Below are positions 75 through 5,041 of a stretch of 5,041 nucleotides of DNA, one piece after another. Both the position numbers and the translations under genes were made by a program. The DNA is taken from the NCBI GenBank assembly GCA_023300065.1, contig JALZWJ010000299.1, positions 1-5,041 of the forward strand, read 5' to 3'. The notes under the pieces were generated by a model, which did not search any database, was not told the DNA's origin, and was given only the letters and a program-made list of their open reading frames with translations. The stretch comes from Akkermansiaceae bacterium (GTDB lineage: Bacteria > Verrucomicrobiota > Verrucomicrobiia > Verrucomicrobiales > Akkermansiaceae). Within the stretch, counting starts at the first letter, position 1; every line of letters starts with the position of its first letter.

Positions 75-857
75 ATGAAGCGGCTGCTGATTGTTCTCCT
101 TTTTCTTTTTAGCGTTTTGGCAGGCGCGATTTGGTGGCTGGTTGAGGAACGGGATGAGGTGGAGCTTGGAGGAGGCCGCTTGCAGGTTCATTGCGCGGCG
201 GGATTCCGGCGGCCGATGACGATGATCGCCCGTCAGTATGAAGAGGAATTTGCGGTCCGAGTGGATCTGCAATTCGGAGGATCCGGCGCTTTGGCGAGTC
301 AGCTAGAGATTGCAGGCGGTGATCTTTTTTTGCCAGCGGATGCTAGCTATCTAGAAGCAATTCGTAAGAGGGGGGCGGTGTTGGAGAGTCTTAAAGTCGC
401 GCGATTAACCGCTGGAGTTGTGGTAGCGAGAGGGAACCCGAAAGGGATCACAAGTCTAGGCGATCTGGGTCGAGCTGGGTTGAGGATTTCGCTCGCTGAG
501 AAGTCGGCCTCGATTGGAAAGCACACGTGGGCGGTATTGGATGAGGTCGGGTTGCTAGGGGAGATTACCCCGAATGTCGTGGTGACAAAGCCAACCGTAA
601 ATAACGTGGTCGAAGATATTGCGATAGGAGCGGCCGATGCCGCGATCGTATGGGATGCCGTTGTGCGTGATTACTCAGGAGTAGAGTGGATCGCGGTGCC
701 GGAGTTTACGCAGCGAGCCAAGCGAGCTGATCTAGGCGTGTTGGCAACGAGCGATGATGTGGAGCGGGCGCGGCACTTTGCCCGCTATGTTGTTGATTCC
801 AATCGGGGGCGGAAGGTTTTTGATGAGATGGGGTTTGCTCGCCCCGAGCGGGACTGA
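75..857 (+). CDS. ModA-like periplasmic substrate-binding protein of an ABC transporter
   Basis: This is a 260-residue solute-binding protein of the molybdate/tungstate (ModA/WtpA) type, expected to capture an oxyanion outside the cytoplasmic membrane and pass it to an ABC permease. Residues 1-22 are a hydrophobic signal peptide or membrane anchor, which supports the start at ATG 75. ModA-like landmarks follow in order: the first strand LQVHCAAGF (36-44), GGSGALASQLE (68-78), DLFLPADASYL (83-93), VVVARGNPKGI (115-125), SIGKHTWAVLDEVGL (146-160) and TVNNVVEDIAIGAADAAIVWD (174-194). The length matches the family. No modB or modC adjoins it: it is followed by a terminator and a convergent gene, so its permease partner must be encoded elsewhere. 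There is no Shine-Dalgarno sequence, and the start codon is five bases from the tRNA-Arg. The exact ligand (molybdate, tungstate or another anion) cannot be read from the sequence. Confidence 0.88.
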   Translation: MKRLLIVLLFLFSVLAGAIWWLVEERDEVELGGGRLQVHCAAGFRRPMTMIARQYEEEFAVRVDLQFGGSGALASQLEIAGGDLFLPADASYLEAIRKRGAVLESLKVARLTAGVVVARGNPKGITSLGDLGRAGLRISLAEKSASIGKHTWAVLDEVGLLGEITPNVVVTKPTVNNVVEDIAIGAADAAIVWDAVVRDYSGVEWIAVPEFTQRAKRADLGVLATSDDVERARHFARYVVDSNRGRKVFDEMGFARPERD

Positions 858-1610: not shown

Positions 1611-1796
1611 ATGCACCTTGTGGCGGTGAATTTGAATCAAGTCGAATGTCCTTCCTGCGGGGAGTGGTTTGAGGTGTCGCAACTGGCTCCCGAAGATTTT
1701 GGGGGTGAGTTAGACTACGATTGTGCGGTTTGTTGACGTCCGATGGTGCTCATGGTCGATGAGCAGGGTGGGGTGCAAGCGCGAGGAGAACTGTAA
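1611..1796 (+). CDS. CPXCG-family cysteine-rich protein, putative selenoprotein (in-frame TGA read as Sec)
   Basis: Read through an in-frame TGA at 1734-1736, this gene encodes 61 residues ending at TAA 1794-1796. Cys13 and Cys16 form the CPSCGE motif. Cys38, Cys41 and residue 42 (TGA) form DCAVC-U-RPM. CPXCG cysteine-rich proteins (Pfam Cys_rich_CPXG) typically have CPYCGE near the N terminus, then DCxVCCRP, and a tail ending near VxARxE, at about 60-70 residues. Here the tail RPMVLMVDEQGGVQARGEL fits that pattern, so the TGA replaces the second Cys of CC. A SECIS-like hairpin follows the TGA. If TGA were a stop, the product would be 41 residues without the RP motif. The family's role is unknown; two Cys pairs suggest metal binding or redox chemistry, and Sec would favour redox. 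ATG 1611 places the first Cys at residue 13, usual for the family; ATG 1596 and GTG 1626 are alternatives. No clear ribosome site is seen. A nonsense mutation or sequencing error is the main alternative. Confidence 0.82.
1737..1770 (+). promoter_or_regulatory. Putative bacterial SECIS element directing Sec insertion at TGA 1734
   Basis: Immediately after the TGA, TGCTCAT (1747-1753) pairs perfectly with ATGAGCA (1759-1765) around the five-base loop GGTCG (1754-1758). A lower stem can form between CGTCC (1737-1741) and GGGTG (1766-1770), with GATGG bulged on the 5' side. The loop GG lies 18-19 bases after the TGA. Bacterial SECIS hairpins bound by SelB, such as that of E. coli fdhF, carry a GGU apical loop at a similar distance within the coding sequence. 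Loop identity, spacing and location all agree, but the folding was judged by eye. Confidence 0.8.
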
Positions 1797-3415: not shown

Positions 3416-3440
3416 GGTGGTCCGCGTTCGCGGGATTTTG

Positions 3441-5041
3441 ATGAACCGTAAGTTGAGTGATCGATGGCATGGCCCTTTTTGGCTTGGTGGGGCGGTGCTT
3501 GCCTTGCTGCCCTTCTTTTTTGCAATTGCCTTTGATGCGCCGCGCGCGCCTTGGGTGAAGGGGGCTGGGAACTTTGGGACCAATATGAGCCTCGCGATTT
3601 GGTGGGGACTTGGCGGGGCTGCAGTGGGTGGTTTGGTATGGATCAAGCTTTCGGGCCGCACGATGGTGGGGAGCTTCCGCCGTTGGTGTGGCGAGGCTCA
3701 CAAATTCCACTGGATGTGGTTTATCCTCTCGGTAGGGGTTTTTGGCCTGCACAATTACATTTCGCTCGGTGGGTTTCCCTTCACGTGGCTGGAGAAGATG
3801 AGCGCGATGACCGGGCGCATTCTGACCGGAGCGGTTCTGGTGGGGCTTTACTGGTTCGCTTGTGGTCTTGCTGGTGCGTTGGCTCCGAAGCGGATGCGGC
3901 GGTGGCCGTGGGTCATTGCGGCCTGTTTGCCATTCGTGATTTTAGCGGATTTCATCGCGATCGTGACTTGGAAAAACCCCGTCATTAATCTGCTCAATCA
4001 GCTGGATGAATCAGGTCGTTTTGACCTCGGGGCGAGTCTGGTATCGAGCGGCGTGGCACTGCCCTCATGGGTCGTGGTGATTGGTTTTTTTGTTCTGGTG
4101 TGGGGAATTTATCTTCTCTGTCATTGGCTAGCGGATTTGAAGTGGGCCTCCCGCTTGCAGCCACCGCGTTGGATTTTAGTGATCTTTATGCTCGGGCTAT
4201 GGGGAGGGGTGTGGGCTGAGAAATTTGTCGGGACAAACTGGAAGTCGCGCAATGCCCTCCGCTGGGAGCACAATGTTTATGATATCCACCTCACCAAGGG
4301 GATGGAGCCGCCACTCGGCGTCGCGGAGTTTCAGGTGAAGTTCTACCCCAAAAGTGAGCCGGCACGTGATGAGAAACCGGCCGCTGGGGTGGCGCGCCCG
4401 GACATCTTTATCATCATGATGGAGAGCACTCGGCAGGATGCCATCGCACCAGAGCATGCTCCGTTTTTGAGTAATTTTAGAGATCACGAGTGCCAGCAAT
4501 TGGGCCGGACTTGGGCCCCTTCTAATTCAACCGCGCTTTCCTGGTATGGTCTTTTTCATGGGGTCCTCCCGGTCTTTTGGTGTGGCGATAAGGCCTCCTT
4601 TCTGGAGAAGGAACAGATCGGCACCCCAGCATGGTTCGAGGTCCTAAAGCAGGCGAACTATCGGATGGAGATCCGCACGGTCTGTGATCTTTCCTACCGG
4701 AACATGGGCGCGACGAGCTTCGGCTCCGCGGAAGAGATTTTTCAAACCTACGGCCAGTCGCCAGAAGGGGAGATTCATTGGAAGGACTATTACTCTCAGA
4801 TCCCAGAGCGGGAGAAGGAGTCGTTTTCCTCCGCGCTGAAGTCTTTGCAAGGCTCTCCTTCGAGCGGGAATTTTCACTTCATCGCCTTAGACTCCACCCA
4901 TTACGGTTACCGCTGGGCGGAGGACTTCGAGGTGCCGTATGAGGATTACTTTGACGGGTCAGGGATCCCGACTTTCCCCGATGAGGAGGAAATCGCCTCC
5001 TTTAAAAGGCGCTACCATAATTCGGTGGCGTGGATTGATTT
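3441..5041 (+). CDS. Polytopic membrane sulfatase-like / LTA-synthase or YejM-like protein (3' end outside window)
   Basis: The frame is open from ATG 3441 to the window end, giving 533 residues so far. The N-terminal part (about 10-260) holds six or seven hydrophobic segments, near 13-31, 52-71, 91-108, 126-147, 156-177, 209-230 and 243-259. A linker leads to an alkaline-phosphatase-superfamily domain beginning at RPDIFIIMMESTRQDA (319-334), where Glu328 is the expected metal ligand. SNSTALSWYGLFHGVLP (361-377) matches the nucleophile region, with Ser363 or Thr364 as candidates. HFIALDSTHYGY (479-490) resembles the DxxH region of YejM/PbgA-like proteins. This layout, a membrane domain plus an external hydrolase domain, is known for lipoteichoic-acid synthases, phosphoethanolamine transferases and YejM; which of these applies is unclear, and a role in the cell envelope is inferred. 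ATG 3441 is preferred because of the candidate promoter; GTG 3417 is possible. C-terminal metal ligands lie beyond the edge. Confidence 0.85.
   Translation, partial: MNRKLSDRWHGPFWLGGAVLALLPFFFAIAFDAPRAPWVKGAGNFGTNMSLAIWWGLGGAAVGGLVWIKLSGRTMVGSFRRWCGEAHKFHWMWFILSVGVFGLHNYISLGGFPFTWLEKMSAMTGRILTGAVLVGLYWFACGLAGALAPKRMRRWPWVIAACLPFVILADFIAIVTWKNPVINLLNQLDESGRFDLGASLVSSGVALPSWVVVIGFFVLVWGIYLLCHWLADLKWASRLQPPRWILVIFMLGLWGGVWAEKFVGTNWKSRNALRWEHNVYDIHLTKGMEPPLGVAEFQVKFYPKSEPARDEKPAAGVARPDIFIIMMESTRQDAIAPEHAPFLSNFRDHECQQLGRTWAPSNSTALSWYGLFHGVLPVFWCGDKASFLEKEQIGTPAWFEVLKQANYRMEIRTVCDLSYRNMGATSFGSAEEIFQTYGQSPEGEIHWKDYYSQIPEREKESFSSALKSLQGSPSSGNFHFIALDSTHYGYRWAEDFEVPYEDYFDGSGIPTFPDEEEIASFKRRYHNSVAWID

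Follow-up and report, generated by a model that had tools for sequence, protein, structure and literature searches.

Does an in-frame TGA in a short cysteine-rich gene of an Akkermansiaceae bacterium end the protein, or is it decoded as selenocysteine (Sec)? The gene lies in a stretch of 5,041 nucleotides (the window: contig JALZWJ010000299.1, forward strand, of assembly GCA_023300065.1), which comes from a 2.2-Mb draft genome in 414 contigs that is 65% complete. A preliminary description of this DNA, made from its letters alone, had proposed a selenoprotein of the CPXCG family with Sec on a conserved Cys codon, followed by family-like coding and a SECIS-like hairpin (SECIS, selenocysteine insertion sequence). 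Our analysis leads to the view that positions 1626-1796 are very likely a gene of this family (PF14255), probably encoding 56 residues, in which UGA is likely decoded as Sec37; the selenol is predicted to lie beside the metal site of a four-Cys zinc ribbon and would act there as a redox switch. The features concerned are as follows:

1626..1796, + strand: Sec-CPXCG gene of 56 codons with putative GTG start, Sec37 and TAA stop (alignment of 16 orthologues; PF14255, 29.5 bits)
1734..1736, + strand: in-frame TGA at codon 37, likely selenocysteine (TGA in 16 genes of the genus, TGC/TGT in the other 7)
1747..1765, + strand: predicted bacterial SECIS hairpin, stem UGCUCAU/AUGAGCA, loop GGUCG (fold of the window; energy versus synonymous recodings; GGTCGA in 16/16 Sec and 0/7 Cys forms)
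1647..1661, + strand: first knuckle CPSCG (Cys8, Cys11), predicted metal ligands (C8, P9 and C11 invariant in 70 proteins; flanked by model strands 4-7 and 14-17)
1722..1736, + strand: second knuckle Cys33-x-x-Cys36, then Sec37 (C33, C36 and C/U37 invariant in 70 proteins; flanked by model strands 28-32 and 39-44)

Reading frame and start codon

The TGA at 1734-1736 is preceded in frame by CPSCGE...DYDCAVC and followed by RPMVLMVDEQGGVQARGEL and a TAA stop at 1794-1796; apart from this TGA the frame 1626..1796 is uninterrupted. In a profile search, the read-through product from 1611 (with Cys for Sec) scored 29.5 bits against PF14255, over the curated cut-off of 25.2, and its membership of the CPXCG family was thereby confirmed. 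When whole genomes were searched, so that the match contained the stop, the score against PF14255 was 23 bits. The start was placed by comparison with 15 sister TGA genes, in which the start codon stands 6 or 7 codons ahead of CPxCG. Since the equivalent in the window is GTG at 1626 and not ATG at 1611, the former is the likely start, and the product probably has 56 residues with Sec37 instead of the 61 residues with U at 42 given before; further in-frame starts lie upstream.

TGA and Cys forms among relatives

The genus was represented by 27 genomes, one per species. The CPXCG protein is encoded in 23 of them (the remaining 4 gave no match), with codon 37 being TGA in 16 and TGC or TGT in 7. 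Genome searches for Sec forms covered Verrucomicrobiota. PF14255 matches were present in 110 of 144 relatives, and none of the 87 outside the genus had TGA. Among 73 named loci, codon 37 was TGC or TGT in 59 and TGA in 14, but these 14 share their assemblies with 14 TGA genomes of the genus (out of 16), so that the two sets overlap and no independent cases are added. A draw from the phylum (387 genomes) gave 48 PF14255 matches, with TGA in the window's own genome only, and a draw from the class (384 genomes, 179 matches) gave no TGA and one TAA among the matches listed, which leave out the weakest, the genus's own included. A search of plasmid records gave no match to the CPXCG protein at 1e-5.

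An alignment was made of 70 proteins, comprising 10 Sec forms (out of 16) and 60 taken from the 120 database proteins listed, with truncated entries omitted. Residues C8, P9, C11, C33, C36 and C/U37 are invariant in it when U is counted as C, in line with the CPxC...DCxxCC pattern of the family. The TGA thus stands on the codon of a Cys that is otherwise invariant in the aligned PF14255 relatives, as the preliminary description had it for the family. The Sec forms cluster in the gene tree (support 91/89) with a single change of state, the tree being built on 57 columns only and having genome G024 on a very long branch.

An identical TGA in 16 genomes of different species is hardly what misread or misassembled TGC or TGT codons would produce, even in a draft assembly such as that of the window, and the Cys forms lack the hairpin excess described below; the chance of such an error is practically negligible.

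Of the database relatives (120 of 175 matches listed), 29 have DYDC[EA]VC as their very last residues, and the window's own protein is one of these 29. These are 36-85 residues long, carry no Pfam domain and are mostly unnamed or hypothetical; they are Sec-CPXCG genes cut at the UGA. One Cys-form CPXCG protein is labelled "restriction endonuclease" by one source, which is probably a misnomer.

Coding beyond the TGA

These 29 proteins stop at the UGA codon, as gene callers report, and so agree with the view that UGA is an ordinary stop and that the product is truncated at 36 residues or decaying. Three observations speak against this: i) a family-like frame, RP[MLI]xLxVD[EG]xG, continues past the TGA in all 16 genes, as the preliminary description had it for the window; ii) Arg38 is fixed over the codons CGT, CGG, CGC and CGA, and Pro39 over CCG, CCA, CCC and CCT; and iii) two of the five strands of the structure model lie past residue 37, so that a truncated product would probably lack a portion of the fold. 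The ratio pN/pS for the 16 genes is 0.37 past the TGA (codons 38-49) and 0.19 ahead of it. With residues fixed over varied codons and these ratios, the frame past the TGA looks translated, and an ordinary stop is very unlikely.

Predicted SECIS hairpin

A hairpin at 1747-1765 (UGCUCAU-GGUCG-AUGAGCA) has 7 pairs, with 17 nt from the UGA to the loop, and a folding energy of -12.9 kcal/mol over 36 nt or -14.9 kcal/mol over 42 nt. It fits the published constraints on bacterial SECIS elements (a loop of 3-9 nt with G in its first two positions, a stem of 4-16 bp, a distance of 16-37 nt to the UGA and a minimum free energy of at most -7.5), including the four quoted in the available text of PMC13188914, and the SECIS-like structure of the preliminary description is to this extent substantiated. 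The loop sequence GGTCGA is present in all 16 Sec forms and in none of the 7 Cys forms of the genus. Relatives in which the TGA is accompanied both by a hairpin and by a frame that is kept past it were found within the genus.

The hairpin was taken from single-sequence folds and checked by pair counts and synonymous recoding. Local fold energies as low as those of the 16 Sec forms were reached by none of 1000 synonymously recoded sets, whereas the 7 Cys forms showed no excess, 966 of 1000 recoded sets being as low. When each of 8 clusters was represented by a single sequence, the weakest of each included, 0 of 2000 recoded sets were as low; this local-energy test was designed after the results of the lax stem finder given below. 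The mean stem length (5.6 against 4.4; maximum 5.6 in 2000 recoded sets) and the 42-nt energy (-12.4 against -10.1; minimum over 300 recoded sets -12.05) also stand out from the recodings. In G024, a G-C pair replaces the A-U pair of most sequences in the stem, both sides having changed.

A number of results count against a SECIS function for this structure. The longest perfect stem has only 4 pairs in 5 of the 16 sequences (G003, G016, G019, G023 and G025), which all fall in one cluster of nine and, as a group of their own, are no more stable than their recodings (0.49 of 2000 sets as low). RNAalifold, run on an 84-column alignment, favours an alternative structure in which the UGA region is itself paired, without covariation. 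The stem named above has 88.9% of its cells paired, a modest value reached by 67 of 500 shuffles, and covariation is slight, with a double change in two stem pairs (16 of 500 shuffles). The lax stem finder, which reported stems of at least 5 pairs in 11 of 16 Sec and 6 of 7 Cys forms, did not separate the two, and up to 13 sequences had such stems in recoded sets (mean 6.1). Finally, the fold of the window alone has a z of -1.6 (13 of 200 shuffles as low), and the single folds of G016 and G024 are unremarkable.

Selenocysteine machinery

The window's own genome contains genes for SelA (483 bits) and for tRNA-Sec (54.4 bits, anticodon TCA). Of the selABCD set sought in the same genome, this part was therefore present, but neither SelB nor SelD gave a match over the cut-off in the 65%-complete assembly, which is a further point against Sec decoding; both are encoded in sister genomes. 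Over the cut-off, the 16 TGA genomes have SelA in 15, SelB in 15, SelD in 13 and tRNA-Sec in 11, with at least two of the four in each. At least two of the four are likewise present in every one of the 7 Cys-form genomes, suggesting that the Sec trait is not kept for the CPXCG protein alone. In addition to the full selA gene, partial SelA-like stretches occur in G010 (contig C5) and G016 (contig C205), either adjoining that gene or at a distance from it, the copy in G016 having an internal TAG.

SelD scored over the cut-off in 23 of the 27 genus genomes, with a single internal TGA in 22; in G015 the match is split and the TGA is in the first piece. The 15 selD genes that were read have the TGA in the context SC[GA]G-TGA-ASKLGQAE, from which SelD of the genus is predicted to be a second selenoprotein in the same bacteria, and this in-frame TGA serves as an internal control for selenoprotein synthesis in this genus. 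In the folds printed for selD, a hairpin of the ACGCAAG/CUUGCGU kind begins about 25 nt on from the TGA.

These genes also bear on whether UGA might have been reassigned to Cys or Trp, or be leakily decoded as one of them. Although Cys is the residue in the orthologues, TGA terminates an ordinary gene in the window (75-857) and, in 5 of the 16 genomes, the Sec-CPXCG gene itself; in addition, SelA and a tRNA-Sec with anticodon TCA are present and the hairpin excess is confined to the UGA forms. Such decoding is extremely unlikely, and decoding as Sec appears well supported by the sequence comparisons.

Predicted fold and role of Sec37

The structure model of the protein (mean pLDDT 84.8, pTM 0.62) has strand pairs with CPSC and CAVC at the turns, a zinc-ribbon layout in which the metal is outside the model, and places Sec37 directly after the second knuckle. 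The best Foldseek match in the PDB, with an E value of 0.43, is not a zinc ribbon, which argues against this assignment, and a PDB sequence search with the CPXCG protein gave nothing credible; the nearest solved structures include LysW chains and the ZitP zinc finger, as weak matches. In zinc ribbons, as described in the available text of PMC5906684, the knuckle motif is CPxCG and four knuckle Cys satisfy the usual site; in the CPXCG proteins, the second knuckle is followed by Cys or Sec. Since four Cys can hold the metal, Sec37 would be left reactive beside the metal site.

The following sequence of events may be envisaged: i) the UGA occupies an otherwise invariant Cys codon, in a frame that is kept past it in 16 species-level genomes; ii) a downstream hairpin of SECIS type, whose loop GGUCG lies 17 nt from the UGA, is predicted to function in decoding; iii) genes for SelA and tRNA-Sec(UCA) are present in the bacterium's own genome, and those for SelB and SelD in its sisters; iv) the UGA would be read by SelB with Sec-tRNA; v) the metal is predicted to be held by Cys8, Cys11, Cys33 and Cys36 in two knuckles, the second being followed by Sec37; and vi) Sec37 and a neighbouring Cys may form a reversible selenenylsulfide, or Sec37 may react with a peroxide or disulfide. 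Metal binding, and hence partner binding, would change as a result, and the Cys orthologues would do the same but more slowly.

From this model we infer a role of Sec37 as a redox switch; the protein may also be a redox enzyme, as suggested earlier. A tentative picture is of a four-Cys zinc ribbon with Sec right after the second knuckle, in which the selenol may switch a structural zinc site by redox state; this form would have arisen once from a Cys form in one genus of Akkermansiaceae, and would have gone unnoticed because its database entries end at the UGA. The main rival on function accepts the selenoprotein but makes Sec37 a metal ligand or metal-sensing residue. Its position directly after the predicted Cys33-x-x-Cys36 knuckle is in keeping with this, whereas the four knuckle Cys already fill the usual zinc-ribbon site as given in the available text of PMC5906684, leaving residue 37 free; a ligand role is a real possibility, short of a probable one.

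Comparison with known systems

We found no Sec form of CPXCG or Cys_rich_CPXG in literature searches, and no NCBIfam model matched the read-through protein at E 0.001. Wider searches of the selenoprotein literature gave no such protein in the titles or abstract openings of the papers listed. A 2026 table of prokaryotic selenoproteins (119 families), as given in the available text of PMC13188914, does not contain PF14255/CPXCG, and the preliminary description likewise named no Sec form of the family. A family described in 2008, GOS_A, has 2 Sec and 155 Cys sequences and no domain named in the available text of PMC2398784. The CPXCG protein thus appears to be a selenoprotein form, so far uncatalogued, of a small family already described, although GOS_A, with which no alignment was compared, could still be the same family.

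The closest counterparts are the PF14255 Cys forms of Akkermansiaceae and other Verrucomicrobiota, which have a similar length, the CPxC and DYDCEVC motifs and the tail in common with the Sec forms. In G002, G006 and G009 they are also followed by a gene for a GT2 glycosyltransferase, as in 10 Sec genomes. They differ in having Cys at position 37 instead of UGA, and the 7 Cys forms of the genus have neither the GGTCGA loop nor the hairpin excess. The LysW amino-group carrier zinc ribbon shares 13-22% identity, with a Z explicable by the common arrangement alone.

The FmdB family is of zinc-ribbon character. Its regulatory selenoprotein (TIGR02605, UxxU), as listed in the available text of PMC13188914, is likewise small with paired Cys motifs and Sec; by the listed motif, however, Sec replaces knuckle residues there, whereas the CPXCG protein keeps four knuckle Cys and has Sec as the next residue. 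The CU-motif selenoproteins SaoC, SaoL, HgcA and MbdU (same source) have Sec right after Cys, as in CPXCG, but are listed with other domain identifiers, none of them PF14255.

Gene neighbourhood and other features of the window

Of 21 contexts, 13 (10 with a Sec form, 3 with a Cys form; e.g. L103:6943-7941) have the GT2 gene starting next to the CPXCG gene on its downstream side, the assignment being based on one scanned representative (PF00535) and the contexts of G005, G008, G016 and G017 being left out. That this gene is common to Sec and Cys forms speaks for their orthology. The neighbours in these 21 contexts gave no functional or mechanistic clue.

The window begins with a partial tRNA (1-66), directly followed by a gene for a ModA-like molybdate-binding protein (75-857; TIGR01256, 76.8 bits), with no transporter genes in the window; a homologue lies upstream of the CPXCG gene in G010 and G018. 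A short protein with a PEP-CTERM sorting signal is encoded at 939-1436 on the minus strand, with a homologue at the same place in G010 and G018. A tRNA-Pro(TGG) gene occupies 1942-2018, and an open frame of at least 541 residues (3417-5039), with an N-terminus that looks membrane-like by eye, has no Pfam or NCBIfam match at 0.001.

Implications

Public annotation cuts the Sec-CPXCG genes at the UGA, and their domain is lost as a result. The reading given here would add an apparently uncatalogued family to the selenoproteins, and the occurrence of Sec and Cys orthologues in sister species would amount to a natural experiment. For a small family of unknown function, selenium at one particular Cys would be a directly testable clue.
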